NCBI GenBank assembly: GCA_033220425.1
Contig: CM065647.1
Span: 4,836,001-4,900,000 of the forward strand
From: Lepraria neglecta
Taxonomy: Eukaryota; Ascomycota; Lecanoromycetes; Lecanorales; Stereocaulaceae
Reading direction: 5' to 3'
DNA length: 64,000 nucleotides
The position numbers and the translations under genes were made by a program. The notes beneath the pieces were generated by a model. The model saw only the letters and a program-made list of their open reading frames with translations. It did no database searches and was not told where the DNA came from. Positions 7,768 through 45,791 of the stretch are shown piece by piece; within the stretch, counting starts at the first letter, position 1; each line of letters starts with the position of its first letter.

Positions 7768-8680
7768 GAGCCTCAATCTCCAAATCGGTCACCACGCAGG
7801 AACGGATCACATTCTCCGACAACGACTCTGTATTTAATGAAACATCAGCATAGCCAGCGACTGGATCTGGAAATAGGGCAGAGGCATGGAAAATGGGTAA
7901 AAAGGCGTCTCGCATTCCCGGGCTTCAGGTTGCATCGGGTACCGGCGTGGAATATTGGGTATGGCAAATAATGGAAGGATGTCGTACGTACGTGAAACAA
8001 AACATAATGATTACAAGCACTGACATTCTCTCGTTTCCCTGCATCTGCCAGACTTTATCTGCATGGTTCTTCTCTTCCCTTTTTCTACCGTCGGCTTCTA
8101 GCCTGTAGCCTTGTTATGCCACGGCCCTGCCCTTCGCCATGTGGTTTCTGAACCCGCTTGGGCATCAATGGCGGATGCATTGTGCCTTCCCGAAAGCACT
8201 GTTGTACTGGGCAAAGGCGCTGAGATGAGGCTCTTGAGGTTCTAGGAATACAGCAACCGCGTTACACACATGTGGATCCTCTACTTTCAATTGCTAATAA
8301 TCAGCGATCCCTGACGTTTTAGTCAAACATCTCTATAGTTGCTAAGCACGCGGTTGAAAGTGTTACTCCAGACCGCCATTCATCGTTACTTTACATAAGA
8401 AGGGGCGAAGAAGCACTAGTCATTCTTTTACACGGCCTAGGTCCTCCTTCACTACCCGAACTCCACGCTCGTACCACTTCCGATCGGACCCTCGCCCAAA
8501 CGAAGCGTACTTTGCGGGGACACTGCCTTCCTGTATGCCTATACACCGCTCCCAAAATATATGTGTCGGGACGAACGCTGCTCCAAAAAAACTTTTTGTG
8601 CCTAATCCCTTGCTCTTGAGACGTGCATTCTGGTGCGAAGTCCACTCTGAGACAGCCCCCATCACAATCCGCCAACAAAA
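7768..8680. other. Intergenic region, no supported gene
   Basis: About 910 nt between the DUF7137 gene and the small gene at 8681. ORFs at 7893..8108 plus and 8391..8735 minus are short, overlap in opposite frames and carry no domain. It contains the 3' UTR of the upstream gene and probably the promoter of the downstream one. Confidence 0.45.
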
Positions 8681-8929
8681 ATGCCCGCACCAACGCCATA
8701 CAACACACCCTCCAACACCCGCTCATCCACGCCAATTAGTCCTCAGCGGCCCCAGGGTTGGAACACCGAAATGACACGATTCGTCCGCGACGCTCTCCTC
8801 AGTGGGGAGGATTCTACATCAACTGTTATTCTTATCGAGACGGAATTCCCTCAGATGAGGCGTAAGGTCACCAAGGTGTGGGTGGAGGAGGTGGGAAGGA
8901 CTCCCCCGTGGGGGCTGGAGGAAGTGTAA
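8681..8929 (+). CDS. Small hypothetical protein (82 aa)
   Basis: ATG in good context (acaaaaATGCCC). The N-terminus is Pro/Ser/Thr-rich, followed by a compact segment with GWNTEMTRFVRDALLSGED and VILIETEFPQM, which looks like real coding sequence rather than a chance ORF. I do not recognise a family. The last codons coincide with a strong donor (gt|GTAAGTG at 8929); splicing to the acceptor near 9199 would also end the protein at Val, so the intron would sit across the stop codon. Immediately downstream lies the 32-nt tandem repeat array, in the same position relative to GTAAGTGCA as in intron 2 of the oxidoreductase gene at 26.5 kb. Confidence 0.5.
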   Translation: MPAPTPYNTPSNTRSSTPISPQRPQGWNTEMTRFVRDALLSGEDSTSTVILIETEFPQMRRKVTKVWVEEVGRTPPWGLEEV

Positions 8930-8964
8930 GTGCATTTTTTGGATTCATCACCGAGCTATTTGTC

Positions 8965-9165
8965 TATCTACTGCTCTTTAGAGATAGCTCTTAGCATGGA
9001 GTTAGCTCTCGGATAGCATGTTGTTGCCAAATGTCTACTCCTTGAGCATATTTTCTGGCATAGATCCTGCTTCTGGAACTTGTTTCCCGGCACGAACTTA
9101 GCTCTCGAACACCTTACTGTACCCTATTGTCTACATCTCAGACTCGCGTTCTGGCTAGACCTAAA
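8965..9165. repeat. Degenerate 32-nt tandem repeat array, copy A (about 6 units)
   Basis: The short anchor GCTC/ACTC/GCTT recurs at 8973, 9005, 9037, 9069, 9101 and about 9133, exactly 32 nt apart each time. Each anchor is followed by a purine-rich part (CGGATA, TGAGCA, TGGAAC, CGAACA), a T-rich part (ATTTTC, TTGTTT) and often GGCA. Single units are quite diverged but the period is strict. The same unit forms the arrays in introns 1 and 2 of the FAD oxidoreductase gene (25.7-26.75 kb). Confidence 0.75.
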
Positions 9166-10260
9166 GTTTGAAAAAGCAGATGCTGACAACAACGCGTGTA
9201 CAGATGAGCAGTGAAAAGGGAACAGGGGCTGGAGTTTGAAGAGAGGAAAAGTCGTTCTCAGCATGCACAGTTCCACGACGTGCTAAAAGGAATGCAAAGA
9301 TATCATGGAAGGTGGTCGTTTGTCCTTCTTTATAATTGTTCGAAGAGCTTCTCTTGACGGCACTGCCGACTGTACTGCACGATGCATCAACATCAATTGT
9401 CATTCTTCAAAATTTGCTTTAGGATCTTTCTCTCAACGGTGTTGCACGTTGCATTAATATCAATCACCATTTTCCTTCCCCATCTCCACCTCCTCTAACA
9501 CCCCTTTGGCGGCCCACTTCCAATCCCCCATCCCCCTACACAGCAACATGCGAATGTTTCGAGCAGGGAGAAGCCGAGCATGCCTAATGCGGCTGCGAGG
9601 ATGCAGTGGGCTGGAAATAGGAACACGTTATGCTTATATTTCTCCTCCTGCTACTAGACCAGTCAAGTTTTAACTACCAGAAAATACTCTAAATCCATCA
9701 TTTTCTGGTTCTTGAAAAAACAGGGAGGAGACGATCTTTAAAAAGGGAGTGAAAACTGGAGGGGGAAGAGAATGAGCATACGTACTCGTTTTGAGAAAGT
9801 AGCTGCTGTGGAGGAAATGGCGCGGGGTGAGGGAGGGGTTGCTGGGTTGGTTGGTTGGTTGGTCAGTTCATTAACTAATATGTCAAGTTCGGAGTAGGAT
9901 GTTGGTACCGTGATTTTGCCATGTTTATGATATGATGTGGTGGGTTTGGGCCAGGGTATGGGTTGGTGATGGTAGTGGTAGGGTGGATGGGAGCGTGGGA
10001 GAGCGATTTGTCAATGGAGCAAGAGCAAATTAGAGAGAATTTTAGACTTCTGTGTAACGGCTTACATTCATTGTTGTTCTTATAACATTTCGGTTGCCTG
10101 CGAGATGTGGCACATTCCTCGCTTGATAGCATATCTAGTGCTGCCGTGTTATCACATAAACGCCCATGCCATCGCCTAGCATCATGCATAGCAGCAGCAA
10201 ACTTGCTTTCGTTCATCGTAAAAGCCCCAATACCATAGACCACTTCCCACCTAAGACTTC
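9166..10260. other. Intergenic region downstream of eIF3l
   Basis: About 1.1 kb with no recognised gene. It includes a short GGTT tandem run (near 9845-9862) and the 3' UTR of the minus-strand eIF3l gene. The 139-aa minus ORF at 9875..10294 overlaps the eIF3l 3' end in another frame and has no domain. Confidence 0.5.
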
Positions 10261-11757
10261 TTAATACGTCCTCGCCAAATTCCTCAAATACCAATCCACC
10301 AACCTCCTCCCCACCTTCGCCTCACTAACATGGATCAAATCCCCCTGCATAGCATAATCCAAATCACTCCCATTAACCACCTCCCCATCCAACAGCGCGC
10401 CCTCACTCCACCGCACCTGCCTACTCCGCTGCTTATTAACCAACAACCACCCCCTAAGCTTCTCAGGCTCCACTTCCAGAAACCCAGCGAGTTTTTTCAA
10501 GTCCATGGTTGTGTAGAGCTTTAGGTAGGATTTCACGGTCGGGGACCACATTGTGTTTTTCACTTCTTCCATGAAAATCCTGCAGTGGTGGTCTACGGGG
10601 TCGACGTTTAGTTCTGGGGTGTCGAAGTCGGGAGGGGTGGGGGAGATGAATTTCGGACAGGCGGTGCGGAAAAGATCTTCAAACAGTGGCAGTGCCTCTG
10701 GTCCTCCCCTCTGCAGGCGGACAAGCTGATCGCCGTATTTCTCCCGTAAAGCGGTGTGGATCGTGTCGTCTAGTTTCGTAGGGTTGAAGGCTACGCAGAT
10801 TGCAATCAGGGCGTACATCTGGTCGTTCTTTTTCGAGACGCTGTCGTATTGGGCGTTTTTTTGGAAGTTCTTGGTGCGGGAGACGTAGACGAGGATGTGG
10901 GAGAACATGCGGATTGCGTCGGCGTAGCGCCGCATCATCATGTAGCTGAAGCCGACGTAATAGTATGTTGTGAAATGCGCGGCCATTACGCGGGCGAACA
11001 TGGCCTTTTTGTTTAATTCGATATCATCGAGTGTCTTCAATGCCAGCGAGAAATCTCCAAGTAGGCAATGCACCCGTAGTAACCCAATAATCGAGAAGTA
11101 GCCTAGCATTCGGTATAGAGGTCTAGTACCGTATTCGCCAGCGACTTGGTTAGGATCTTCATTCCGCTTCATAGAATCGAGCTGCTCATTTATTTGCGAG
11201 CGTTGGATGAGCGAGTAGAGGACATTGAGGACGGAGTAGCAGCCCCATGTGTTTGGATTGTCGCGCAGGAGTTGGGCGTCGTCCGAGGAGGGTTCTTGGC
11301 GGGCGATGCGGTTGCGGTAGCGGCAGAAGGATTCGAATTGGTAGATGAATTCGTCTATTACGTCCCAGGCCCAGAAGTACTAGAACATGCCATCAGCTGT
11401 CTGTGATATTAGGAAGAGGGGAGCTGTGCTCACTGTAGGCACCTCCAAATCCACCGGCCCTTCCGAATTGAGTATGTAGTGAAACAAATTGCAATAGTTG
11501 TCGTAACTAGCAAACTTCGTATCCAGCGCTGCTCCATACTCCAGCGGCGTAGCAGCAGCCGTAAGCTGAGCTTGCATATCATGCGGTCCTCCAGATGTTC
11601 CAAAGGAAGCTGTGCGGTCCAACTCACCCATGTCATCGTCGAAGTGGACTTGCTCTTTGTAGTCCTCCACCAGGGCATTTTCTTCTTCGTCTGACTCATT
11701 AGCGGCAACTTTTGAACGATCGGCCGTCGTGTACGGCTCTCGTTGGTAGAGTGCCAT
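10261..11757 (-). CDS. Eukaryotic translation initiation factor 3 subunit L (eIF3l)
   Basis: Exons 11757..11434 and 11379..10261; intron GTGAGC...CTAG, phase 0, giving about 480 residues, the normal fungal length. eIF3l is a PCI-type subunit of the eIF3 complex that supports 40S binding and scanning in the cytoplasm. Exon 2 starts YFWAWDVIDEFIYQFESF. It contains the family segments NTWGCYSVLNVLYSLIQRSQ, MLGYFSIIGLLRVHCLLGD, YYVGFSYMMMRRYADAIRMF and the C-terminal PCI-like part ending RLVDWYLRNLARTY. The gene is divergent from the nitrilase gene with only about 206 nt between start codons. A second eIF3 subunit gene (NIP1) lies 21 kb away. Confidence 0.93.
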
Positions 11758-11963
11758 GATGGCGAAGTATGACTGTTTGTATGTTGAGTTTCGCGCTGGA
11801 CTTGGTGGAGAGTTGAGGCTTTTCGCTTAGAGATGGCCGTTGCGCTCAAAAATGATCTGCACAGGGGTGCGGAGCCCTGAATAATGCCCCGCAATCTTCA
11901 GAATTCTCTTCCAGCTCCCTTATCCCTACGGATTGAACAAATCCATTGAACAGCCTCACGACC
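11758..11963. promoter_or_regulatory. Compact bidirectional promoter region (eIF3l / amidase)
   Basis: The 206 nt between the divergent ATGs at 11757 (minus) and 11964 (plus) must hold both promoters and leaders. I see no canonical TATA box. The assignment is by position only. Confidence 0.5.
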
Positions 11964-13033
11964 ATGGCACCAACCTACAAAATAGCGCTCATACAGCTCT
12001 ACCCCGAGGTCCTCCAACCCTCCCCTCCCCTCCACCAACCGCAACCACCCTGACACCCCGCAGCCCCTCCAACCAGACCTCAATTTCTCTAAAGCCGCCG
12101 AATTCATAATATCGGCGGCCCGCGAAGGCGCCCAACTCGCCGTCCTCCCCGAATATCATCTCACAAACTGGGCGCCCGAGGACCCGAAATGGAAACCCAT
12201 ATGCGCGCAATGGGAGATGTATCTAAACAAATACCGGGATCTGGCGAGGGAGTATAAGATTTGTATAGTACCGGGAACGATCGTGCAGACGTACATGGAT
12301 GAGGAAATTGGGGAGGAGCAGTTGCATAATATTGCGTATTTCATTAGCAATGATGGGGAGGTTTTGGGGCGTTATCAGAAGAAGAATATATGGTATGCTA
12401 ACCCCTCGCCCCTCCAACCCTCCATGCATAGCTACTCCCATCCCTCCCCCTCTCTCACACAGAGTAGCCTGACTAAGCCCCCCTTCTCCCTTCCACAGGC
12501 ACCCGGAACGCCCCCACCTCACCTCCTCTTCCTCACACTCCCACATCACATTCTCCACCCCCCTCGGCCCCATCGGCCTCCTCATATGCTGGGACATCGC
12601 CTTCCCCGAAGCCTTCCGCGAGCTCATCGCCTCAGGCGCCAAACTAATCATCATTCCCACCTTCTGGACACTAGCAGATTGCTCCCCCTACGGCCTATCC
12701 CTCAACCCACACTCCGAAGCACTTTTCCTGCAAACAACGCTCACAGCGCGGGCTTTCGAGAATACGTGTGCAGTGGTATTTGTGAATGCGGGCGCCCCGC
12801 CGGGTGATGATAAGTCTACTTATTGTGGATTGAGTCAGGTGGCGATGCCGTTTGTGGGGGCGTTGGGGGATGAGACTAAGGAGAGTAGTAGGGAGGGAAT
12901 GAGTATTGTGGACGTTGATATGCAGGTTGTGGAGGAGGCGGAGGAGAATTATAAAGTTAGGGCTGATATTAGTAAGGAGGGATGGCATTATACGTATCGA
13001 CATCAGGAGAGGGGGGAGAGGGTTGGGGGATGA
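11964..13033 (+). CDS. Carbon-nitrogen hydrolase (nitrilase superfamily amidase)
   Basis: Exons 11964..12008, 12064..12392, 12499..13033, about 302 residues. Nitrilase-superfamily enzymes cleave non-peptide C-N bonds of amides or nitriles. The Glu-Lys-Cys triad is complete: Glu45 in LAVLPEYHL, Lys121 in RYQKKNIWHPE, Cys154 in GLLICWDIAFPEAFREL. Splicing at the second intron (GTATGC...CCACAG) rebuilds the WHPERPHL segment in phase. The first intron needs an unusual donor GTCCTC (12009) with acceptor CCCCGCAG and branch CTGAC; it restores YPEPLQPDLNFSKAAEFI, which is expected for the family, whereas reading through hits TGA. The substrate cannot be told from sequence. Confidence 0.88.
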
Positions 13034-13536
13034 TTGAAAGTGGGGATGGGTTTTGGATGTCTGAGCGTTGGCATGGGATGAGATCTGTAGTATCTTGGAT
13101 TTTAACATATAATGGGATCTGGAAGATGAGAGCGTAGTATTAAATTCCATTTCGAGCCTTGTTTGTTCATTGCTGTGTACTATCGATATCCCTCATAAAC
13201 CCTACGGCTAAAGTACTAAGCACACTGCGAGTTGGGGTATCTCTTCGAAAGCATGCGAGAAACGAATAAGAAGACAGCGTGAAGTATGTAAGTCCGGAAG
13301 TGGACGAGACCCTTATGCGTACGCCATTTTACACCTTTGTTCGATCCGTAGCCGTCATGTACACCGATTTCGCCCGCGGTAAGAACAGCCGGAGGCCGTT
13401 AACAAGGACGGCCCTTTCGTAAGAAATAGAAATGTTCGAAGTGTGTTGCTCCGGAGCCAGGAGCGAAGTTGTGCGCGAGGTCGAAAATGCCTCGATAAAT
13501 GGAAGAATTCGAATGCAATTTTTGGCAGCAGAAAGT
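13034..13536. other. Convergent intergenic region
   Basis: About 500 nt between the 3' ends of the amidase and Nrd1-like genes. It contains both 3' UTRs. No further gene or repeat is seen. Confidence 0.5.
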
Positions 13537-15206
13537 TTAAGCTGCAACCGTGCGAGGGTTCCACGGTGATCGATGGTCGATGTTGAGAGACGAGAGCTCC
13601 GACCTGATCTCTCCCTCCTCTGATCCTTCCTCAGTATCGTCCCCATCCATATTGAGCATCTGGAAGCGGTTCATCATAGAATTTGCCTTCTTCGCCGGCG
13701 GTGGTGCCAGGTACTCCTTTTTCGGTACGTGTTGGATCTTCGGTAGAGGCTGGGCGCACTCATCAGGATACCACTCAATCTTCATGCCTTTGTATTCTTT
13801 ACGAGACATCATGCAGGTCCTGGCAAAGAGAGAGTTGTGGATCGAATTGAGTGAAAAGTGGGCGTCACCATTGCGAAAGAACATTTCGATGATGATCAGA
13901 TTGTGGATGTGGTCGAGGTCGTCGTGCAGACGCTCTTCCGTGATGTTTGGATGGATGTTGCGGATGATGAGGTTTCGAGTCGCTCCTATGCCGATCTTGT
14001 TGGCGACGTGGCCTGGTAGGACGAATTGGCGGTCGTTCCATGAGAATTCCATCTGTGGCCATATGTTAGCTGATATCTCGTCTTGGTGGACGGGATGGGA
14101 TAACATACTCGCTTGCCATGTACATAGATATCATTGCGCTTCACATAATTCATGAATTCCTGAGCTGCAGAGCCCTCCACAAAAGAGATACTGGCACTAC
14201 GCTCATTGGAGCGCAGATATATGTCCAGAACAAGGCCACCGCGTACGAAGTCAACAATATCCTTGTGCGTCGTACGATCCGAGAGATTCTTCGCAATGAT
14301 GGTCCGCTGTTCTTCCCTAGCGTATCGCTTCCTCTCCATGCGTGGTACCGTGAGGCCTTGGTCATCCTTATCCAGATCAGGATCCCATGAGACATCATCC
14401 TCTTGTGCTGAGCTATTGTGGCGGCTGTACGACGGCGCCTTCCCTTGGTTGTAGCCACGATGGTAATGCCCATTCCCACCATGTCCACCATTCTTCGGAG
14501 GCCAATTGGAACTCTGGTCTGCCCATGTATCTCCAGATGGCCGTGACGTTGTGACTTGAGTCTTTGGGGGGCGATTGAAGAGGTTTACACCTCCGTCTCC
14601 TGGTTGGTCTTCGTCGACGAAGCTGTCCATGGTGGCTAGTGGGACTGATCCACCACGAATGAGCACCTGCAACGTTTAGTCCGTGCACATGTGTGCATTT
14701 CCTTACGATTGTAGCTGTACCTCTAGAGTGTCTCGTTCGATACCTCCATTGAATAGTGCTCGGGTAAGGCTTGCTAGTTGAAGTCAGCGAGAGCTCCTGG
14801 AGTTTGCCCATTGGGGGCTCTGAAGTGGTGTGGATGAATTGCTGTGGATAGGTTGTCACACATACCATATTCTTGTGCCATACGAAGCTGTGAGGACGGC
14901 CTTATTAGCAATTGTCTGAGCTTCAAGAGATTCATACCTCACCAGATTGTCATGGTCAACTTTGGGTATGCTGACAATGGGGATATCCACAGGAGTTGTC
15001 AGATCTCTGCCCGATGTATGCTACAAAATCCATAAGCCCTCGCTCTTGTACTCCAGCCATCGTCGTAGGTGTGACCGACAAACTCAGCTCTATCGAATTG
15101 TTAGCTGGTAAGCCCACTGTGAGATAAGAGGGGAGCTTCTTGGGTGAACATACCGCCGAAGTAGCGTCTCGAAATATGCCTTGTCTATAGTGACGGTAGC
15201 TGCCAT
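13537..15206 (-). CDS. Nrd1-like (negative regulator of differentiation) RRM protein
   Basis: Start MAATVTIDKAYFETLLRR at 15206. Exons that I can join in phase: 15206..15154, then 15006..14943 (a small extra exon from 15089 with AEF may exist instead), 14887..14866, 14773..14721, 14666..14109, 14052..13537. Together they read ...SIPKVDHDNL-LRMAQEYASLTRALFNGG..., the typical N-terminus, then Gly/Ser-rich sequence and two RNA-recognition motifs: one around RTIIAKNLSDRTTHKDIVDF and one around RNLIIRNIHPNITEERLHDD, ending YKGMKIEWYPDEC and an acidic tail. About 420 residues. These fungal RRM proteins bind mRNA and act in differentiation; the target is not visible. The uncertain point is the second exon: phase fits the long 147-nt intron 15153..15007, but AEF right after RR also resembles the family. 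Confidence 0.82.
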
Positions 15207-15545
15207 GATGCCTCCGATTGTCGAAGCTAGTCGACAAGCATGTAGTGGTGGAGGTTTAAAATGACCGGTGGAGGAAGTTTGCCGGTTTTGGCGCGTGCAA
15301 GTCTTGGCAGGGATCCGGAGTTTAGCATTCTGGACCGGTCTTTCCCCATGCACCCTTTTCAAATTACCTATTAATACATATCCCAATGCCAATAGATCCT
15401 TGTCCTGTGTAGAGGGAACCAACAATGGCATCGTTCTAATTGCAGTATAACATCATGTATATCAAAGCTATGAAATACTAGACCCTGATCTAAACGCTAA
15501 ATTCAGTATGCTTCTAAAACAGATCTCGAAGGATGAGCTCAGCGC

Positions 15546-16376
15546 CTAAACATTGGCCATTTCTCTGCTCTCAGGACTTTTATCAGAGTATGCTATGCTT
15601 TTCCTATAACCATAAGCTTTCTCCCCAGTCTCGCTCTTGTCATTTCCATCTTTGATGGTGCTCCAGATCACAACGGCAAGCCAAATGATCCAAATCACAC
15701 CAGCAATGACTCCGTATGCGATCTCGCCCTTCACAGTATTGCCGCTGAGCTCAAGACCCAAGCCGGCATTGATGATGCCGACTGTGACGAAGATTCGTCC
15801 CCACCAAACGTGTAGCGGAGCCCAAAATGTTCGTTTCTTGTCCTTTTTGTAGATGAGGTGGTGGATGTAGCCTGTGATGGGCTGGAACGCGAGGCTGCCG
15901 ATGACGATAATGCCGATAATGGGATGGCCGTTGCTAGCTGTGAGCTGAGAGAAGAAGGAACGTCAGCTTTCTTGCTCCGCTTAACATAACGGCAGGAGAG
16001 TGGGGCTTTCTCACCAGTGAGTCAGGGTAAATGGCGATGTATACACCCAGAGCGAGCCCGGTTAGGGCTAGTAGCCATGCGAAGACTTGAATCCCAGCAT
16101 GTATCCAGATCAATCCTCGGACGGTAGAAGTGCGAATAATGATTGCGCCCACAGGGAACAAGAAGGCGAAGGCGAAACCCATGATGGTACCATGGGCGAT
16201 GACTGCGTTTTTTCTGATTGGATTGACCTGCTCCGTCGTGCCTCCTCCTCCTCCTCCTCCTCCTTCCTGGGCACTCGCTAAGGCCGCTATGGTAGCTGTT
16301 AGCATTGAATTGGAGAGGTGGCTTTGGTTGGGGGCTTACCGAGCCAGAGGCCCACAAGCAATGCTATGGCCTTCAT
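15546..16376 (-). CDS. Cytochrome b561-type integral membrane protein
   Basis: Exons 16376..16340, 16286..16015, 15944..15546; introns GTAAGC...ATAG and GTGAGA...CTCAG, about 235 residues. A signal peptide (MKAIALLVGLWLAALASAQ) is followed by a poly-Gly tract and four to five hydrophobic segments. His residues sit where b561 proteins bind two haems: VIAHGTIMGFAFAFLFPVG, WIHAGIQVFAW, NGHPIIGI and PLHVWWGRIF. This family moves electrons across membranes from ascorbate or similar donors. No DOMON domain is present. The cytosolic tail is Lys/Ser-rich. The acceptor (for example ferric iron) is not deducible. Confidence 0.85.
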
Positions 16377-17429
16377 TATCGATGATATGAGGTGGTCGAC
16401 ACTATTCGCAAGGAATAATCGAGTCTGAGGTAAGGAGCTCACAGGGCCCACAGAAATCTAGTATGTGGTAAAACTGCAATGTTAAATGCTTGAGGACAAC
16501 GAGGATGGAATACTACAAGCTATGATTCGCAGTCGACAACGCAAGTAACCAGAGGAGAAAAGGGCGTGTAGGCCTGCCGCACATATGATATGTTAAAGGA
16601 AAGGTGCGAATACGGTGGAATTATATGACAGCATGATATATTCATTACGTTGGCTACCAGACCTGCGACCGAGGTTGGCATGAGGTATGGAATGCATAAA
16701 TGTCAATTGGACCGTTGAAAGTGGCTGCAACTAGTGAAACGCGTGACCCAGATTAGGCTACTCGAGCGGTGGTGCGCACTGATGTAGTTGATGGCTGAGA
16801 TAGATCCGCGCCAACTGTTGATGTCATCCAAATTGACATGGTGTCTCCAAATTCGGATGCGATTTTTCCCCACCTCCAACTTCCCTCTCGAGCCATAAGA
16901 CCGGTCATTGGAATACGGAGCAAAAAGCTGTGAATTCTAGAGACTTCTGGACTAAATTCCTTCTCTGTTAAATCATAAGCAAGACGTTAAAACCTAACAC
17001 CCACCCACACTCCATTGCACTTTGTGCATCTTGTCGCACTTTGGTGACATCTGTCTTAGATCTCACGCTAGCCAGTACTAAGAGATCCTTACTTTAAACG
17101 GTATCTCAGATCGGCCAATGAGATGAAAGCATTGCAGAAAACAGCTGCGCAAAAACATCGGATTTCAAATATTGATCAATTTAATGGTTGCTTGCCTTTG
17201 AGGCCCGAAATTCCGCTGACCGAACTCACGTCATGTTGTGCGCCTTCCTATTTAGAGTTGACTTTCGGTCCCCGCGGCCGAGTGCGCGACTTATGCAAAG
17301 ATCATTTATGCGGTGGCGTTTGTGCCAATAGTATGAGCTTGGCAATGCTGCACTCTCCATGAGCTGGCATATTCTGCGCGAACCGGTTGAAAGGTAGGAA
17401 ACACTGTTCTGGAAGCTGAGCGGTGCGAA
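16377..17429. other. Intergenic region between the b561 gene and TYR1
   Basis: About 1.05 kb with no recognised gene. The 79-aa plus-strand ORF at 17123..17362 has no domain and no splice partners. The part next to 16376 should be the b561 promoter, the part next to 17430 the TYR1 3' UTR. Confidence 0.45.
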
Positions 17430-19302
17430 TCATGTCTTCGCCAGAATGACCCTGATCATCTCGTTGCCAAGTCGTGTTGCTTCAGGGAAGCGAGGTTCAA
17501 AGTACTTCTGTATATTCTCGAAGCGATCTTTGTACGATGCGAAGTCACCAAATGAGACGCACTCTGACCATGCCTGAATTGAACACCATTAGCGAACTTA
17601 TGGCGTATGGCTTATCAACAGTAACGTAAGGTTTCAACATACTCGAGCAGCAAATGTAAATTCTAGATCATCTGAACGAAATGTGTTGTCCTCGATGGCT
17701 GTGTCGATGATTTCATCAAGAAGCTGGGGCTTGCGGAACAAGTACTCCGTGACACCGAGCCAAAGTCGGAAAGGCTAACGCGAAAACGTCAGCTGTCATG
17801 CTCTGCAGGTTCTGATGGGAAAGCTTGCCGGTGTAGAACAGATCATGTGATCATATGGTACAATGCCAAGCTTCCACCAACAGTCAACCATAGCCAGAAG
17901 ACTTAAATGGTTATTCCGTGTCCTTTTCTTCGGCACGTTGCCTAGGGAGTATCGATCCAGTACATCGTCCCTCAAAAGTAGCTCCCTCTCTTCTCCTGCA
18001 GTGCCGAACACGGCCTCTCCAGCTGTCCTGATCCGTTTCTCGAGCTCCTCTCGATGGCCACCAAGCATCAGCTTGAAGAGCTCCGTGACTGATTCGGCGT
18101 ATTGCCGGATCTGCTTCTTTGCCCACTGGTTGAGAATCGCAAGACCCGCGTAAACGTGCCACTTGTTGGAGTAAATGCGTAACATGATGTTGCACTTGAC
18201 ATTCTCAATACCACCAACATAGCGATTCATCTCCCAGGGGAATTGGTTGTTCGCGTGCCAAGCGGTGCCCATGCTTAGGAAAGCAGCATGTGTGACAGCT
18301 TGCGTGTCTGCTGTGATCCTGTCATGCTCTCGGGCTGTGAGATAGACATGTTTGGAGCCGAAACTTGAGAGGATCTTCTCAACCAGGGCAAAGCTTTCAT
18401 CCGAGGCATGCTCCCGAATCAGGACAAGAGGTTGGCCTTTGGGGTCGATTTTGGGCCCATGTAGGGAATGGCAAGACACGATCTGGACGTCTTCTGGAAG
18501 ATGCTTTCTGAAAGCGTCAATCTCGATCTCTTTGCAGGAGGTCTGTCCGCCGACAATGGCGCCTTGCTTCGTTGCTGCATTGTGTCAGTGCAATGACTCG
18601 AGAAACCTACATGCGGATATCCGAGGCGTACAAGGCCCATACAAGCTCACGATGCGAGCAATAGCCTCAGCCTCCACGCTGTACAGGATGACATCGCTCG
18701 ATCTGGAAACAAGACGGCCGTCTGCATATAGGTGGATTTTGCTCTACGGTCTTCTTAGCTATAGCACCACATTTCTTGGCTCAGAACAGCACTTACATTG
18801 CCAGCGAACTCCTGTGTCAATGCTTCGTATTTTTCGGGCTTGTCGCAGGCGTTGACTCTGCCCAGACAAGGGTGTCAGCTTCTGCTCTAACGGCTAGCAA
18901 AGCTGCGGAAGAGCGCGGATGTGCGATCTATAGATGAGGCTTATTAGTACCGTGTTGGCCATCTTCATCGCATTAAACAGCGGCTTTAAGAATGTATGCT
19001 TCAGACAAAAATAAAATTAGGTAGCTGAGATGTTACATCAGTGACAACCTGCCAGCTCGCCGGAACACCAGAATGGTGCCATAGCTCACTAGCAAGCCAT
19101 ACTCGAGCCAAATGCACTCAAGTCATCATTGCAAAATGTGGCAAGAATAGTAGACAGCACTTACCAGATAAGAATCTCGCCCAAGCATCCGAATAAGTAG
19201 GAATTTTTACCTCCAACCCGCAGCGCTGATCCGCCTAGCATACATCTTCCCCATGTCACCCATCCCAATGATACCCACCGCTATCTTATCCATATCGACC
19301 AT
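17430..19302 (-). CDS. TYR1: Prephenate dehydrogenase (NADP+), tyrosine biosynthesis
   Basis: Converts prephenate to 4-hydroxyphenylpyruvate in the cytosol. Exons 19302..19211, 18857..18797, 18743..18632, 18574..17829, 17774..17643, 17573..17430 give 428 residues with all phases matching. The N-terminal Rossmann motif is VGIIGMGDMGKMYARR; exon 2 gives RVNACDKPEKY; exons 3-4 join into YGPSTKQGAIVGGQTSCK; then VSCHSLHGPKIDPKGQPLV. Exon 4 ends HMICSTP and exon 5 starts PFRLWLGVTEYLF. The intron between them (17828..17775) begins GCAAGC, so it is a GC-AG intron. The first intron is 353 nt, long for this region. A second in-frame ATG (MDKIAVG, 19293) is an alternative start. The gene is divergent from RPS14. 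Confidence 0.92.
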
Positions 19303-19694
19303 GCTGTAATTGAAAGGTAGATCCCAACCACTCTAGATGCCTTGGGGGGAAGTCGAACACGGATAAATTCAAGGAGAGAATGAAACCCAAGGCGTATGAG
19401 CACAAACCCCGCAAAAGCGCTCCATAATCTAGCTTTGTGTTGGCAGTAGAGCCTCAAGCCGAGCATGAAATACATGACATGATTTGGAATCAGCTCACTG
19501 ATGTGACTAACGCACACGATCCCTCTGACAGATAAAATTACTTTCCCCACAAGCCTGACCCTCGCTTAGCGGCAAACGGCGGCACAGAGCGCTAGCATTT
19601 TCGCCGAGATTGAACGATCAACGCCCAACAATTCTTAATACTACAAACCCACCTTCTACCACATCTACAAGAAGACAATCCAAGCTTCTCCATC
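19303..19694. promoter_or_regulatory. Bidirectional promoter region TYR1 / RPS14
   Basis: 392 nt between divergent starts. Just before the RPS14 ATG the sequence is pyrimidine-rich (CCACCTTCTACCACATCTAC), as is common for ribosomal protein gene leaders. No TATA box or named site is claimed. Confidence 0.45.
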
Positions 19695-20335
<641 letters not shown>

Positions 20336-20472
20336 GCGAGTAACCCTGTTGGTATACGTGGTCTATTTAGTGGCGGAATAGTCGAGATAAACGAGAAGAA
20401 CGGCTCTAGCCTGGTCTTCGTGCAATTCAGCTTGCACTTCCAAAATCAAACCATTGCAAAATGTTCTCGACG

Positions 20473-21663
20473 TCATGGATCATCTAAGTCTACCACAACA
20501 GGAGCATACTCCCCCCTCTCATCCTCCCCCTCCATCTCCTCCATCTCAACCTCCACCCTCTCCCCATCCTCCAACTCCAACAATCCCCTCCTAACAAACT
20601 CATCCCCCAATTCCCACCCATACCCCCCCTTCAAAAACGCCTCCAAAGCCTCCATCTCCTCCTTAACATCCTCCCCCTCCCTCTCTCCAAATACCTGCCC
20701 CAATGTCCTCTTAAACCGCTTCAGCAGCCCCTTCAATAACCCACCACCCTCATCACTTAAATCAAACAGCCCTCCCTCCACATCCTCACACCTCTCCATC
20801 TGCCTCCTCAAAACCCCAAGAAACGTAGCAAACCACCCCTCCCTCTCCCTGACGGCGCGTTTACACGTCAGCACCAATCCCACGATGCGCTTCCACTCTT
20901 CCAAACACGAGTAACTCGCAACCGTAAGCACCATCAGGAACGTTGCTTCCATCTGCCCTAGCACTACATCGCCCCAGCCCTCTCCCTCCTCCCGCCATCT
21001 CTCCACCACAACCCCAAGCGCCCAACTCCGATCCGTCGCCGCCTCCGTCCTCTCCCTCCCCACAGCCCCCTCCCTCCACGTCCGCTTCAAATCTATACCC
21101 AGCACCCCTAGTTCCCTCTCTTCTTCCCCCACTTCAGCAGCCGTCAAGCCGGGTATCTCATCTCGATCCTCCTCTGCACAGCTACCGGACGTGATCTTCC
21201 ACTCCTCATTTTGCGATAAATGGCTGAGCAATCTCGGCGTAATATGTTCCGTCAGCTTTGCCCAATCCCCTCGTTCTTCTTCTACCTCCGCTTCCTCGCT
21301 AGCGGACTGCCGATACGGCGTCAGTCCTCGTTCCCACAGCGCTGCCAGCTGAGAACGACAGCTCTCGGGATTCTCGACGACGGGGTGTAGAGAGCCGGTT
21401 GAAGGGTCCCATTTGCGGACTATTAACGGAGGTGGGCTTGTTGAGGTTGGTAGGGTGGTGGGGATGTCAAACCAGAAACCGTCGCGGATGGAGAGGGAGG
21501 TTGTTTCTGAGGTGAAGATGAAGTGGTAGCCTGGTGGTATGGCTTTGATGCCGTAGAATTGGGGGGTGGTGGTGAAGGAGAGAAGGTCGATGGAGCAGAG
21601 GATTGGGGAGGGGAGGGAGAGAAGGAGGGCGGTTGGTGTTGAGGTTGGTTGAAATGTAGCCAT
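20473..21663 (-). CDS. AAR2: AAR2-type U5 snRNP assembly/splicing factor
   Basis: Single exon, 396 residues. Aar2 binds Prp8 during U5 snRNP maturation. The N-terminal domain carries the family signature FYGIKAIPPGYHFIFTS followed by SLSIRDGFWF and VRKWDPSTG. The C-terminal helical half (about 230-370) includes GQMEATFLMVLTVASYSCLEEW and GVLRRQMERCEDVEGGLFDL, matching the Aar2 C-terminal domain. The protein ends in a Glu/Val/Asp-rich tail. Start ATG at 21663 gives a normal length. The opposite strand shows a long Pro/Ser ORF that is only a shadow. Confidence 0.88.
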   Translation of the reverse strand: MATFQPTSTPTALLLSLPSPILCSIDLLSFTTTPQFYGIKAIPPGYHFIFTSETTSLSIRDGFWFDIPTTLPTSTSPPPLIVRKWDPSTGSLHPVVENPESCRSQLAALWERGLTPYRQSASEEAEVEEERGDWAKLTEHITPRLLSHLSQNEEWKITSGSCAEEDRDEIPGLTAAEVGEEERELGVLGIDLKRTWREGAVGRERTEAATDRSWALGVVVERWREEGEGWGDVVLGQMEATFLMVLTVASYSCLEEWKRIVGLVLTCKRAVREREGWFATFLGVLRRQMERCEDVEGGLFDLSDEGGGLLKGLLKRFKRTLGQVFGEREGEDVKEEMEALEAFLKGGYGWELGDEFVRRGLLELEDGERVEVEMEEMEGEDERGEYAPVVVDLDDP

Positions 21664-22209
21664 TATGCGGTGTTTTCACTTCAACGGCCGAGTAATCAAA
21701 GCTGTGGTCGAGAAGGTAGGAATGTTTATAAGGTCTTTGGACAGTGTTATTTCGGTTGGCTGCAGAGCAGGTGAGATGGAGGGCGCCATTGTGGTGAGCG
21801 GGCTTCTGCTGAAGAGCATCGCTGTTCAATGACGATTGCAGGACGTCAAATCCAAGCAGGGCAAGCGAGTTGCATGATTGTTAGGCAATGGCTAAGCAGC
21901 AACCTGGGCAATTTACTACTGCATGCTTTTACCAGCGCAGAAGTTAGTGGATAGTCAAAAAGGACGAAGGATCTTCGCATCGATCTCACCTCTGCTGTCG
22001 ACGTTTTGGCAGAGTTGCCTATGTACACGAATCTAGTCCAACGTAATTTCGACAATATGCATTTCTCTTTCCTTGACATATTCAAGATGCTGTTCAAGTG
22101 ATGTTCATAGATCCCATTGTCCACCAAGACAATCTCCTGTTGTCTATATATGTAAGGCTTCGCTATAAACATTGACAAATACGTTACACCATTGGGTATC
22201 ATACACATC
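21664..22209. other. Intergenic region upstream of AAR2
   Basis: About 550 nt. The minus ORF 21846..22211 has no domain. The region presumably holds the AAR2 promoter. Nothing else is supported. Confidence 0.4.
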
Positions 22210-22214
22210 ATGCA

Positions 22215-22512
22215 TCATGCGTCACTGAAATAATAGACCCAAAAACCAGCCATCAAAAATGCGGCAAAAAACGCCGTCCATTTAACAGATTCATACGCAC
22301 TAGGCAGCGCCCTCAGCCCAATGAACCCTCAAGAATAACATAAGACCTCGCAACCAGTAAATCGCTCCACAAAGGGTGACAGGAACAAGAGCTCTCAACG
22401 GAACATCCATTTCCGGATCCCCTGACTGCGTCCTATTCCTCATCTTAGCCGCAACACGCTTGAGAAGGCGTCTAGTATATCCAATGTTCTCCTCAATGTC
22501 CAGGTCCTTCTC
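22215..22512 (-). pseudogene. Decayed C-terminal copy of the adjacent multi-pass membrane protein
   Basis: Translated on the minus strand, this segment gives DVPLRALVPVTLCGAIYWL, then after a one-base shift ARSYVILEGSL, then after another shift LRALPSAYESVKWTAFF. These align in order with the end of the intact neighbour (YIPLPALIPVLLCSTVYIL, SRAYVILESF, LRALPPSAYESVNWTAFL). It extends about 15 residues further downstream than the neighbour. No intact frame remains, and nothing homologous to the first three quarters of the protein is left. It is a tandem paralogue remnant. Confidence 0.8.
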
Positions 22513-22560
22513 TTAATGCATTATAACTCGCTAGTAGGTTTACATATTCGGGGATTTTTG

Positions 22561-23892
22561 TCAGAAATGCGGTAAGAATGCCGTCCAATTAACAGATTCA
22601 TATGCGCTTGGAGGTAGAGCTCGAAGATCAATGAAGCTTTCGAGGATAACATAAGCGCGAGAGAGAATATAAACCGTGGAACACAGCAGGACAGGGATTA
22701 AAGCCGGCAATGGGATATATGTCGCGGGGCTGTATGGGTCTCTGAAGACTTTATTTGGGACTTCCGTCAGAATCTTCCCCTCTTGTTCGAGTACTCTTCT
22801 TCTGCGCTTCGTAAGAGCTGGGGCCCAAACCCACCAGCAGAGATGGATAAACCAGAAGAGCAAGAGGCTCACCATAACGCTCAGAGTCGCAATGCGCCAT
22901 AGAGTTTTCTCCGCCTGGGATGGGAACCTGAAATCCCAGCCGCTAATATGCACGGCAGCATACCCCGTGTGTACGATAAAGAGGATCCACATCGGGCCCG
23001 CTGGCTGTGGAGCGAAATAGTCGTCAGGTATCTTGTCGATGGGCCACTTCCTCGGGGCAACACGAATGCGCAGTGTGTCCATGATGAGCCAGCAGTATTT
23101 CCAACATAACGAAAATGACCAGTCTGGACGTCCGGTCGCAAAGTCGAAGGGTGTCTCGATCTGAGGCCCTCGTGCAAGATCACCAGCCCCAAGGAGAATC
23201 TCTTGTATGGTAGCGTTGGCTTCCAGAACCAACGGTTTTCCTACGTCCATCGGTTTGTTGAACCAGAAGTAATATGTTCCCACGCTGCAGAAAATGAACC
23301 CGATTGTCGACAGCTCCAGTATGGTTATTGAGATATTTTGGAACGCTCTGGCAACAGCGCCGACCAAGTACCACAGGATCTGGCAGACTGTAATGAGGCG
23401 GATGAGGCTATCGACTTTGTTCTTGTCTTTTATCTCCTCCAGTTCGATTTTGACCGCTGAGTATGGAATGTAGTTGTTTGTGACGAGGTAGTGGATCTGA
23501 TTCGCGTCGAGTGGGAATGCTGGCCACTGCTCCGTAGGCGACAGTCGTGGATGTAGAACGAAGCCGCCCATGTTCGCAAAAAACGCATGTTTTATGGTCC
23601 ATCCTTCATAATGCGAGTGTCGGAATTTCTCCACGGAAGCTCGCGCTGAGCACCATTGCCCGATTGCGAGCTGAAATACGAATTCGGGTGCGAGCCATGT
23701 GAGGCCTGCCATGAGAGCCTTTCGAAAATTTCGTCTCCACCAGTTGAAGGATGGTGGGAAAATATTGAGGCATAGGACGGTCCAAGTACAGAGGATGAGT
23801 GTAACGATGCTGTTCCAAAGAATGTCAATCGTTCCTCGGCCACCTGGCGATGAGGTCCAGCCTTGTAATGGTGCAGTAGTGTTGTGGCCCAT
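22561..23892 (-). CDS. Fungal multi-pass integral membrane protein of unknown function
   Basis: Single exon; start chosen at 23892 (MGHNTTAPLQGWTSSPGGRG) because this opening is typical of an expanded fungal family, while the ORF itself runs upstream to 24078. About 443 residues. It begins with GTIDILWNSIVTLILCTWTVLCLN and FNWWRRNFRKALMAGLTWLAPEF, and has seven or so hydrophobic segments, including a Trp-rich pair around WILFIVHTGYAAVHISGWDF and LFWFIHLCWWVWAPAL. I know this family only as uncharacterised membrane proteins, often near heterokaryon-incompatibility loci. The decayed paralogue lies directly downstream. Confidence 0.7.
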   Translation of the reverse strand: MGHNTTAPLQGWTSSPGGRGTIDILWNSIVTLILCTWTVLCLNIFPPSFNWWRRNFRKALMAGLTWLAPEFVFQLAIGQWCSARASVEKFRHSHYEGWTIKHAFFANMGGFVLHPRLSPTEQWPAFPLDANQIHYLVTNNYIPYSAVKIELEEIKDKNKVDSLIRLITVCQILWYLVGAVARAFQNISITILELSTIGFIFCSVGTYYFWFNKPMDVGKPLVLEANATIQEILLGAGDLARGPQIETPFDFATGRPDWSFSLCWKYCWLIMDTLRIRVAPRKWPIDKIPDDYFAPQPAGPMWILFIVHTGYAAVHISGWDFRFPSQAEKTLWRIATLSVMVSLLLFWFIHLCWWVWAPALTKRRRRVLEQEGKILTEVPNKVFRDPYSPATYIPLPALIPVLLCSTVYILSRAYVILESFIDLRALPPSAYESVNWTAFLPHF

Positions 23893-25377
23893 CAAATGAT
23901 AAGGGGGTATATACAAAAGTTCGTTAAAATTCGTGAGTTGTGACGACGCGTAACAGCAATGAATGAGGATGTATGAACGCAAGTATTCAGCTTTGTATGT
24001 CCAAAATCGTGTCAAACAATGTAACATATAATGAAGGTGGAGACTGAAAACACAGCCAGCTGTGCTATGAGTTAGCAAAGAAGGAAAAGATTACAAGCCA
24101 AGAATAGAAGTGTGGCAGGGCTAATGCTAGGGGGGGCCTGCAGGGGGTTGAGCCCCAGCACATCCGAGGCCACTAGCATGAACATGGGCGGAAGATGATG
24201 ATCAGATGAACAAATGAAACAGGCAGCTCCAGTCCAAAGCACCACATTGGGAGGATACTTGAACCCGATCTGCCCCGTTGCACCGCGGCAGACTTGATAC
24301 TGGAATAGCATTGTGGCTTTTGAAAGAAGACACATGTGGTCACCTTGTCGAAGCGGTGTTCTCCATCTAGCGTACTATATGTGGAGGAAATGTGCACTTG
24401 GCGTTAAGATCCAGCTTGTCATTCGCCAGGCGGAGGCGGGACAGTTGCATCCGGCGTGCGCAAGATGCACCGGCGCATCTCCAGGTTTGATGTCAACGTT
24501 TCACACCTTTCTCCGAATTGACATATTGATTCGCTAGTGGTCCATTCAAGAGAGTTGAACGGCATGCTTCCTTCGCTGGCATCGGCCCCCTCAGCGACCG
24601 GGAAACGAGTGTTCTTGGCATTGGCGCTTGAGAGTGCATCGCCGACTATTATAATAGTTGAGACTCGATTTCTTTTTAGAAAGAAATCAATTTCGGTACT
24701 TCTATCCTTGAGAGCAACAAAGACTGTTCAGCGATGTTTTTTCGCGCTGTTGAGATACTTTAGCCCGCCGACGGCTTGCGGCAGCGAGCGGTCCATCCCT
24801 AAAATCCGTCTTCTTATCTTCTTCACTTCAAGGAATCCACAACGACTTACGAGCAATGATTCTATATGAAAATTTTAGGTCTCGGGAATTTGCAGAAGAA
24901 TTTACTCTAAAACTTTACCCCTCAGATGTTGTCTCAATCCTTTTTGATGCAAATTCACGCCTACAGCTGACTTTACAGCTGACTTTACAGCTGACTTTTC
25001 AGCTACCCGTCGCCAGCGTGAGCCCGTTCCTTGGTTCGCAAAAAGACAGGCTTAGAGCGACGGTAGGATTCGACGATGCTTTTTCTGTTTTCCCGTCTTG
25101 TTTGCTTGCAGCTTGCAGCGTACTTGCCCTTTTCCTGTATACGATTATATTCTACAATACCTAGCCATTTACTGTCTGTCCTATTAGGCCACTCCAGACG
25201 TATATACCTGTTTCTGTCTTGTCGATCACCCGGAATCGCCTCGAAATTCGAAGTCTGTAAGCTTTGGTACTCGATATATATAGTCTGCTTTCTTGTTTAA
25301 AGTCATTGCAGCAGTGGGTGTGCGGTCCCAAGAACGCAGGCATCGTTGAGAGGTCTGCCAGCTTTCTGACCGCGCAG
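23893..25377. other. Intergenic region with small repeats and no supported gene
   Basis: About 1.5 kb. It contains a 12-bp tandem repeat (24961-25005) and a perfect 9-bp inverted repeat GATTTCTTT/AAAGAAATC with a 4-nt loop near 24668-24689. ORFs at 24537..24869 and 24856..25164 have no domain. The right end should hold the promoter of the FAD oxidoreductase gene. Confidence 0.45.
24961..25005. repeat. 12-bp tandem repeat (TTACAGCTGACT), about 3.5 copies
   Basis: Units read CTACAGCTGACT, TTACAGCTGACT, TTACAGCTGACT, then TTTCAGCT. Each contains the palindrome CAGCTG. A short minisatellite in an intergenic region. Confidence 0.85.
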
Positions 25378-27764
25378 ATGAATACCCACAAAGATACGGT
25401 AGCAGCTATTGCCGCGCAAGTCCGGCAATTCTACGACCGCCGAGAGCCTTTTCGCGTCTACCATGGCTCTACGAACAGCACTCGCCCCTCCCAGCGTCAA
25501 AAGGATCGGATGGTCGATATCAGCAACCTAAACCAGATTCTAGAAATTGATACCCAAGCCAAGTATGCACTCGTAGAGCCGAACGTCCCCATGGATGCTT
25601 TGGTCGAGGGAACGCTTCGTCATGGCATGGTCCCGCCAGTAGTAAGGATCCCCCTAATGCATTCCTTCACCTCTCGAGACATCTTTTTTGGCATCCCCCA
25701 TATCCTGCTTCCGAGACACAATCTGTGGCACGGACACCTCTTCCAAGCCTTCTTTTTCTCCCCAGATCATGCTCGTGAGACGGGCTTCATGGCACGGCCA
25801 CCGCTTCTAAACGACCTGTCACTTCTAGTATCCCACTCAAGGAAAATCGAACTCCTGAGAGTTGTTTTGGGGCGAGAGCGCCGCTTCCAACGAGCCTTTC
25901 ATCCTGAATAACTTGCTGCTGCGAGTTGGGTTTTGGCACGAACAATGCTTGCATATAGCCTTCTATTCCATATCTTCAAACTCTAGTGTCTTTTCTTTGC
26001 GGCACAAGTGCTTCTACTAGAAAGGCAACGCTGACTCTGAAACGCTTCAGGTCATGGAGTTCCCAGGCATAACGGCCGGTGGAGGCTTTGCGGGGACTGC
26101 TGGGGAAAGTAGCTCCTTTCGATATGGATTTTTTGACAGAACGGTAACTTGGATCGAAATCGTCCTTGCCGATGGCGAAATTCAGACTGCGTCGACGACA
26201 CAGAACCCTGAACTTCTATATGGCTCAGCTTCCTCCTTTGGCACTCTAGGCATTACCACACTCCTGAAAATTGAGCTGAGAGAAGCAAGGACTTATGTTG
26301 AATTGAGCTATTGGCCGATTGCAAGTATGACCGAAGCTTTGGAGAAGATCGAGGAGAAAACTCAGGATCCTGAGACTGACTATGTGGATGGAATCATCTT
26401 CGCAGCGAACAAAGGTGTGATATGTACAGGGCGTTTGAGGGATGAACCACGCGGTCGAGTGCAGCGATTCAGCCGTAAGTGCAATTTCCGGCGCCATTTC
26501 CTTCCGTTATTATCGATTCACTGCTCCCAAGATATATCTCTTGGCATGTGTTCTGCTCCCAGACAGCTTTTTGTCCCCCTGATGTCTGCTCCTGTCCCCT
26601 GCCATTTGGCATAATATCAACTCCCGTACAGCCCTTTGTTCTCAATATGCTGCTTCCAAGACTTATTTTCTGGCAAGCAGTCTGCTCGGAGATAACTTTT
26701 TGTGCCTTGTTACTTGCTCCTGGATTTTGTGTTTTGGCTCGCAAGAAGTTTTGCTGACCCCAAAATCCGCAGGTGCATCTGACCCATGGTTTTATCTACA
26801 CGCTCAAAAACTCGTCAATGCCCCCTCTGATCTAATGATCGAGTCAATCCTCCTCAAGGACTATCTCTTCCGCTATGACCGAGGCGGGTTCTGGATGGGG
26901 GCATACGCCTTCAAATACTTCATCACGCCATTCAACCGCATTACACGCCAACTCTTAGACTACTTCATGCGAACCCGCGTGATGTACCACGCCCTCCACA
27001 AAAGCGGCCACTCAAAACAGTACATTATCCAAGACGTCGTACGTATATTTCGGAGTGTTCTTCTCATTTTCGAACCGCTGTCTCGTTCGCAAGACCTTTT
27101 TTGGGAGCAATGAGACAGGCTGTATTCCCTAAAGATGTCCCACAATCTCGTCTTATATCTGGAAAAAGTAATGCTGACTCCGAATTCTCCGCAGGCCGTA
27201 CCCTATCCTGCCGCCAATGAGTTCTTCGACTTTGTCGATCAATCTTTCGGCCATTATCCTCTCTGGCTCTGCCCATTCCGGCAGAGGGGGCAATCTCCTC
27301 AGTCTCCATGTGGTCCTTTAGCCGAAAAGCCTGCTTCCAGATACCCGGAAATGCTCCTCAACTTCGGAGTCTGGGGTCCAGGACCTAAAGAACGCCGCGC
27401 GTTCGTTGAAGCCAATCGACGCTTAGAACATAAGATTGAAGATCTTAATGGCAGAAAGTGGCTTTACGCACACACATATAACACGGAAGAGGAATTCTGG
27501 AATATGTACGACCGCAAGAGCTACGATGCCTTACGTGCAAAGTATAACGCTACCTACCTCCCTACTATATATGACAAAGTCAAGGTCGATGTCGATGCTG
27601 AGGAGAGAGCTATGCAGGAGTCCTGGGTTATCTGGCTTCTTGCGTTGTTCTGGAGTATTTGGCCGTTGAGCGGATTATATGGCGTTTATAGTGCTGCGAT
27701 GGGGGGAAACTATTTGCTGCCGAGACAGAAGAGATGGGGGCGTGTGCAAAAGTCGAAGGGGTAA
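25378..27764 (+). CDS. FAD-dependent oxidoreductase of the Delta24-sterol reductase (DWF1/DHCR24-like) type
   Basis: Exons 25378..25641, 26051..26474, 26773..27038, 27195..27764, about 507 residues, all phases matching. The PCMH FAD-binding domain is visible: FRVYHGSTNSTRPSQ, YALVEPNVPMDALVEGTL, and across intron 1 PPVV-MEFPGITAGGGFAG, followed by SSFGTLGITTLL. The C-terminal half carries DRGGFWMGAYAFKYF, LLDYFMRTRVMYHALH and FGHYPLWLCPFR. A hydrophobic stretch near the C-terminus (WVIWLLALFWSIWPLSGLYG) suggests membrane association. The reaction is NAD(P)H-dependent reduction of a sterol-like double bond by family analogy; the substrate is unproven. Introns are 409, 298 and 156 nt, much longer than the usual 50-70, because two hold 32-nt repeat arrays. 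Start chosen at MNTHKDT; an upstream in-frame ATG at 25264 gives a less typical N-terminus. Confidence 0.87.
25665..26042. repeat. Degenerate 32-nt tandem repeat array in intron 1 of the oxidoreductase gene (about 11 units)
   Basis: The anchor (GCTTCC, GCTCGT, GCTTCT, ACTCAA, GCTTCC, GCTGCT, GCTTGC, ACTCTA, GCTTCT) occurs at 25707, about 25739, 25771, 25803, 25835, 25883, 25915, 25947, about 25980 and 26010. Spacing is 31-33 nt with one irregular step at 25851-25883. Units share CGAGAC-like, T-rich and GGCA parts with the arrays at 8965 and 26521. Confidence 0.75.
26521..26755. repeat. Degenerate 32-nt tandem repeat array in intron 2 of the oxidoreductase gene (7 units)
   Basis: Units start CTGCTCCCAAGA (26521), CTGCTCCCAGAC (26553), CTGCTCCTGTCC (26586), CAACTCCCGTAC (26618), CTGCTTCCAAGA (26650), CTGCTCGGAGAT (26682), CTTGCTCCTGGA (about 26713). 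Steps are 32, 33, 32, 32, 32 and 31 nt. Several units end in TTTTTGT or TTTTCTGGCA. This is the cleanest of the three arrays. Confidence 0.85.
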
Positions 27765-45639: not shown

Positions 45640-45703
<64 letters not shown>

Positions 45704-45791
45704 AGCAGCAGCATCCGCCCTGCCAGCACCAGCTCCCCAACGCAGCCGCCGTGGCAGATGCATCAGGAAACCATCCAAGCTGTTGGATTGA
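43780..45791 (+). pseudogene. pogo/Fot1 transposase with three in-frame stops
   Basis: One continuous plus frame (start not determined; the coding match begins around QDEADEQEELPKEL upstream of 43854). It contains a helix-turn-helix/CENP-B-like DNA-binding region (SLSKVARQYGLPRSTLNDRV, LCSYIERLEAWGWPLTIQQL), then the DDE endonuclease with the first Asp in DIWNMDEKGFMMG, the second in ILIFDGHASHIT and the third-acid region at LQPLDIGFFAPL. Stops occur at 44475 (TAG where GW-T is expected), about 45222 (TAA) and about 45306 (TAG). Each could arise from one CpA-to-TpA change. The C-terminus is a long Pro/Ala tract. The element is therefore likely non-autonomous. Confidence 0.88.
45470..45745 (+). 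repeat. Pro-Ala coding microsatellite (CCAGCx)n in the transposase C-terminus
   Basis: Near-tandem CCAGCA/CCAGCT hexamers encode a Pro-Ala-rich tail of roughly 90 codons. The purest part, alternating CCAGCA and CCAGCT, lies at about 45640-45705. On the opposite strand it makes spurious long Leu/Gly/Ala ORFs. Confidence 0.85.

Follow-up and report, generated by a model that had tools for sequence, protein, structure and literature searches.

A candidate introner family with an internal array of 64-nt repeat units in Lepraria neglecta

Results

Repeat-bearing copies around a sterol-reductase-like gene

The stretch of Lepraria neglecta DNA analysed here, called the window, is 64,000 nt long (C2:4836001-4900000) and contains five copies, W0 to W4, of one repeat-bearing family (Table 1). 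Three of them are the introns of a gene for a delta(24)-sterol-reductase-like FAD oxidoreductase, whose predicted protein matches PF01565 and has homologues of up to 75% identity, the two best named ones being those of Imshaugia aleurites (71%) and Mycoblastus sanguinarius (67%), both Lecanorales. When the three introns were excised at the boundaries given in Table 1, the resulting protein was ungapped at all three junctions in an alignment with six homologues. Two of the arrays thus sit inside introns 1 and 2 of the FAD gene, as had been proposed before. The model of the family's 5′ end found no match in W2 and, at E up to 5, none in W4, which also shows no 32-nt period (148/1000 shuffles). 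The third array had been placed right after a donor-like site; it does lie within a splice-competent unit, W1, whose coding host is putative at best: the frames are short, and precise removal gives 11 codons against 10 with a shifted acceptor and 20 on retention. Upstream of the sterol-reductase-like gene, at 24962-25004, there are 3.6 copies of the 12-nt unit TACAGCTGACTT, so that a branch-point motif (CTGAC) and an acceptor-like one (TTTACAG) recur there.

Table 1. Host gene, family copies and half-units in the window
Feature	Position in window	Strand	Description
Host gene, delta(24)-sterol-reductase-like FAD oxidoreductase	25378..27764	+	exons 25378-25641, 26051-26474, 26773-27038, 27195-27764; 507 aa
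W0, decayed copy	8504..8675	+	array 8548-8667; doubtful 5′ end remnant, 7.5 bits, E 2.7; no splice sites found
W1, introner copy	8926..9203	+	278 nt; donor, branch point and acceptor intact; 5′ end model 25.4 bits; chain ABAABA
W2, introner copy (intron 1)	25642..26050	+	409 nt; longest array of the window; 3′ end model 34 bits
W3, introner copy (intron 2)	26475..26772	+	298 nt; canonical 5′ end-(A-B)x3-A′-3′ end; chain ABABABA, score 173.9
W4, introner copy (intron 3)	27039..27194	+	156 nt; array mostly lost; 3′ end model 20 bits, E 1.6e-4
Half-unit A			about GCTCCYGAGACWTGTCTTTTGGCA + 8 nt; 32 nt
Half-unit B			about GCTCCCAGACAGCTTTTTGTCCCC + 8 nt; 32 nt

Periodicity and the repeat unit

The three arrays (8965-9165, 25665-26042 and 26521-26755) were found where the preliminary description had put them, and they have a common unit. 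The 32-nt period claimed for them held against shuffled sequence in two regions, 8930-9200 (self-match at lag 32 of 0.381 vs a shuffle mean of 0.257, reached by 0/1000 shuffles) and 26475-26773 (0.378 vs 0.267, 1/1000), but in region 25642-26052 lag 32 by itself was not above chance (191/1000 shuffles), the top lag being 64 (0.383, a value that has no shuffle control of its own). When lags 32, 64 and 96 were averaged, the value of each of the three arrays was reached by 0/1000 shuffles. The 32-nt spacing is recurrent, but the real unit is 64 nt long and consists of two unlike 32-nt halves, A and B. Clearly typed neighbouring half-units alternate between A and B in 132/145 cases, and 130/150 steps between half-units are exactly 32 nt, in a chaining procedure that permitted only 30-34 nt and rewarded 32.

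Profiles built with one array left out recovered the missing array on the plus strand of the window: the 11 held-out 64-mers scored 17.2-43.8 bits and the best minus-strand match 7.0-9.9 bits. One other plus-strand place, 15510, reached 16.7-21.4 bits, above the held-out unit at 25771 (20.4). This weak match to the 64-nt unit (15510-15573, cmsearch E 0.025) is perhaps a decayed copy. None of the arrays was reported by TRF, and a BLAST search with the longest array returned the query itself as the sole match. Imperfect 12/18/36-nt repeats rich in CAGC/CCA occupy window positions 45466-45736, possibly as a coding low-complexity repeat.

A dispersed family in the genome

The 42.0-Mb assembly consists of 11 contigs, of which C1 to C8 measure 4.5-6.3 Mb. 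The pattern of the A half, with at most three mismatches, occurred at 51 places, four of them within the window, vs one for the reversed-pattern control. Against the same kind of control, the 5′ end pattern gave 35 places vs 2, the 3′ end pattern 11 vs 0, another segment of the 3′ end 15 vs 0, the 5′ end plus A pattern 7 vs 0, the B pattern 10 vs 0 and the A′ pattern 2 vs 0; the last four of these jointly gave 34 vs 0. Together, all patterns marked 128 distinct places (three control matches in total), which form 87 clusters on all eight large contigs; 23 clusters carry at least two patterns and 64 a single one, and 12 of the 34 clusters with the 5′ end pattern contain another pattern as well. 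The copy number is uncertain, since the 87 clusters include a few chance matches and omit diverged copies. Twenty 10-kb segments, sampled systematically, contained one array (L013) and a single short copy (L009); extrapolated to the genome, this gives roughly 400 copies, with a very wide error.

The letters were inspected at 30 of the 51 A-pattern places and in five other regions. L035 and L046, which by their letters are apparent chance matches in coding sequence, were excluded from the anatomy, and L001, L031, L032, L049, L050 and L034 are duplicates of the window or of L033. Chains of half-units numbered 50 in the loci and the window, most of these loci having been selected by the A pattern, vs one in 723 kb of control sequence that had been reversed or complemented.

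Anatomy of a copy

A canonical copy is about 300 nt long. Its 5′ end opens with the donor, three A-B units and a last half-unit A′ follow, and the 3′ end contains the branch point and the acceptor. In the oriented loci the 5′ end occupies about 46 nt, from GTAAGTGCACTTTTCGG to CACT, A′ ends with TTTTGGCTC, and the 3′ end is like CGAAGRGYAATGCTGACTCCRAAATCTGCAG. The 18 copies with both splice ends range from 142 to 428 nt, with a median of 276.5. In the 142-nt copy, which lies in a histidine phosphatase gene (L056:1-621), a half-unit A is apparently inverted.

In ten copies sliced by hand, units in equal position showed an identity of 0.639 vs 0.592 when permuted (0/2000 permutations). In six copies sliced automatically, two of them wrongly, identity was 0.522 for the same place, 0.488 for units of the same type in another place and 0.548 within a copy. 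The position-0 units are the best conserved (0.904), partly since the copies were selected by that pattern; similarity is lowest among the middle units, which several copies lack. As units in the same position are more alike than permuted ones, the array was already present in the founder, with about 3.5 units of 64 nt, and later decayed or changed in length.

Coincidence of element edges with splice sites

The edges of the elements are splice sites, and excising the elements restores the frame of the sterol-reductase-like gene as well as that of five further hosts whose products carry domains. Thirteen spliced proteins were obtained, and nine of them (those other than L025, L037, L052 and L053) were submitted to Pfam. 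In five of the nine a domain crosses the junction, namely alpha/beta hydrolase in L024, short-chain dehydrogenase in L028, fungal rhodopsin in L041, FAD-linked oxidase in L043 and histidine phosphatase in L056; three had no Pfam match, and the match of L045 starts just past the junction. Precise removal was better than acceptors shifted by 1-2 nt in 12/18 copies, in W1 and L055 by one codon, and retention leaves a two-sided frame of equal or greater length in 7/18, including L041 and L056. On these sequence grounds we infer that the RNA of the copies is really spliced.

A young pair and the insertion target

Two copies on different contigs, L052 (C2) and L053 (C4), are identical in 232/246 columns (94%) from GT to AG, and their flanks have no notable similarity except a common CCGT right before the donor. 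A BLAST search with L052 returned L053 at 94% and next best matches at 71-86% over partial lengths; most of the inspected copies are therefore old, with degenerate ends, and a few are younger.

Flanks were counted in copies with nameable ends, leaving out decayed ends, the reversed piece of L038 and L029. The acceptor is followed by GT in 15/24 copies (binomial 6.7e-6, assuming a 20% background) and by GTG in 11/24; a pyrimidine precedes the donor in 17/20 and AG in 0/20. Insertion thus appears to prefer Y^GTG over AG|G. In the sterol-reductase-like gene, the GT that follows intron 1 starts the Val89 codon, which is invariant in 7/7 proteins, and so belongs to the target. Identical flanks of 2-3 nt were seen in 4/18 copies and none longer than 3 nt, the 3-nt match occurring in L052 alone; a 2-bp duplication of GT is indistinguishable from target choice.

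Some copies lie next to each other or lack splice ends. In L027 and L029 (around 1501; L029 by eye) two elements are arranged head to tail, and where one reaches its 3′ end the next begins, which a GT-directed target would allow. L038:1-520 is a sense-antisense-sense cluster of three element pieces; the reversed one is intact at its 3′ end, is shortened at its 5′ end and is joined head to head with the next. By eye, splice ends are missing from L013, L023, L036, L040 and window 8504-8675.

RNA structure

RNA folding had been suggested as one possible role of the arrays, and our results do not support it: the mean fold z-score was -0.20 over 19 copies, compensatory pairing was absent in 89 A and 65 B half-units, RNAalifold predicted zero pairs over 12 units, and Rfam gave no match. 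Single folds of the three arrays, five more copies and the majority row showed no conserved structure; L056 alone reached a z of -2.28. A 10-nt palindrome, AGACATGTCT, occurs in a number of A halves. The two copies of the young pair have whole-copy z-scores of only -1.43 and -0.82, though their ends pair, at -19.7 kcal/mol vs -10.2 (sd 2.8) in shuffles for one copy and -16.6 vs -9.2 (sd 2.5) for the other. Among 14 other copies, end pairing was -10.3 kcal/mol with a copy's own ends, -10.4 with crossed ends and -8.9 with shuffled ones, and 2/14 lay under the 5% shuffle level. Since own ends pair no better than crossed ones in these copies, end pairing is not maintained; age-related decay may mask structure.

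Discussion

The suggestion of old, repeatedly spread introner-like elements, made in the preliminary description, has held up: the copies have common ends and a common array, lie in unrelated genes on eight contigs, and include a 94% identical pair with unrelated flanks. We consider it very probable that the family is a non-autonomous introner of about 300 bp and that the arrays make up its interior. The first bases of such an introner would provide a strong 5′ splice site and its last bases a branch point and 3′ splice site, and an element landing in sense in a transcribed gene would be removable as an intron. The younger pair moved as a unit bounded by splice sites. The copies presumably spread by copying, and an enzyme is likewise presumed.

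Other origins of the arrays fit the data far less well. Arrays that are tandem and vary in unit number could be ordinary minisatellites, each formed on its own within a long intron, but unrelated loci have in common the unit sequence, the unit order and both intron ends, the common ends contradicting separate origins, and units in the same position are more alike than permuted ones (0/2000); we regard this explanation as extremely improbable. The copies recognised by eye as having no splice ends (L013, L023, L036, L040 and 8504-8675) would suit a non-intronic transposable element that landed in pre-existing introns. Against it, donor, branch point and acceptor lie within the common sequence, the 94% pair runs from GT to AG, and the exons of the sterol-reductase-like gene directly abut the element, which makes it very improbable. 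An RNA structure, or an RNA-protein function in the splicing of these long introns, is improbable too as the reason why the array is preserved. The spacing is well preserved in several full-length copies and the palindrome AGACATGTCT recurs in A halves, but the folding, covariation and Rfam results given above count against such a function, as do middle units that are least alike and missing from several copies.

Within the introner reading the route of spread is more evenly contested. We lean slightly, at about an even chance, toward DNA-level insertion of an element whose inverted ends are weak and whose target is fixed, over reverse splicing; insertion as DNA explains the Y^GTG target, the inverted ends seen in the young copies, the reversed piece and the copies without splice ends. 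The other route keeps the introner core identical and has reverse splicing of the excised RNA into DNA as the sole means of spread; we give it somewhat less than an even chance. It would agree with unit edges exactly at splice sites and with identical flanks longer than 3 nt in 0/18 copies, and PMC9860276 describes ascomycete introner families as having neither terminal inverted repeats (TIRs) nor target site duplications (TSDs). Reverse splicing is harder to reconcile with a Y^GTG target that, with AG before the donor in 0/20, is unlike an exon junction, with ends that in the young copies pair beyond shuffles and so form imperfect inverted ends, and with the reversed piece and the copies without splice ends. 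A bolder version of the DNA-level reading, which we think rather unlikely, holds that the phased 32/64-bp array is the part that makes the element work: every three helical turns or so it would offer a putative binding site to a mobilising protein, and the family would be an introner that inserts as DNA, at a fixed Y^GTG target and with ends that are imperfect inverted repeats. The array is best viewed as a feature of the founder, with a binding-site role as a possible one.

Mobile introns are already known, and one built on a regular array of 32/64-letter repeats is an unusual version. The origin of new spliceosomal introns is still debated, and an array introner could help to show it. The copies of the family can be counted and their ends are defined, and the family also offers a younger pair, a Y^GTG preference, reversed and decayed pieces and a repeat that serves as a ruler; with these features, spread at the RNA level and at the DNA level yield different, checkable predictions. 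In PMC9860276, ascomycete introners are an outlier group without transposon marks, and if the array were a working part, the family would represent a DNA-level introner in a phylum reported to have introners without TIRs and TSDs. The titles and abstract openings listed in literature searches, a scope that leaves subscription papers mostly outside, contained no introner family of a lichen-forming fungus and none with an internal tandem array. 

Comparison with known introners

Several groups of known introners resemble the Lepraria family in part. Introner-like elements (ILEs) of Dothideomycetes, in the Capnodiales, were reportedly described by van der Burgt in 2012 and Torriani in 2011. According to PMC4457414 (Collemare 2015), Capnodiales ILEs are, like the Lepraria copies, spliceosomal introns that recur in unrelated genes within a genome, sometimes more than one per gene; they degenerate with age and have no consistent target duplication. 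Reverse splicing of excised intron RNA into DNA has been proposed for them, as retold in PMC8469720, where an AG/GY insertion preference is attributed to van der Burgt. The Lepraria family differs in its internal 64-nt array, in its Y^GTG target, with AG before the donor in 0/20 copies and the GT half present in 15/24 (against AG/GY as given in PMC8469720), in a whole-intron RNA stability that is not significant over 19 copies, and in a host whose nearest named relatives are Lecanoromycetes. It works like a Capnodiales-type ILE; we do not class it as one because the stable structure and the AG/GY preference, both tested, were not found.

The sister stwintrons and cropped sister introns of Hypoxylaceae, according to PMC8469720, have likewise proliferated; they too have inverted ends and lack consistent target duplications. 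Unlike the Lepraria family, they are described there as having inverted repeats of 45-55 nt, nested introns and no bordering exon pattern, whereas here end pairing is weak and confined to young copies and GTG is preferred. With the DNA-transposon-like introners of algae and other eukaryotes, as presented in PMC9860276, the family shares mobility, a target preference and, in its young copies, imperfect inverted ends; a consistent target duplication of 3-9 bp was not found here, a 3-nt match occurring in 1/18 copies (L052). As far as testable, the Lepraria family corresponds to introners in the general sense: unrelated genes carry one intron sequence, whose edges are the splice sites and whose removal restores the frame.
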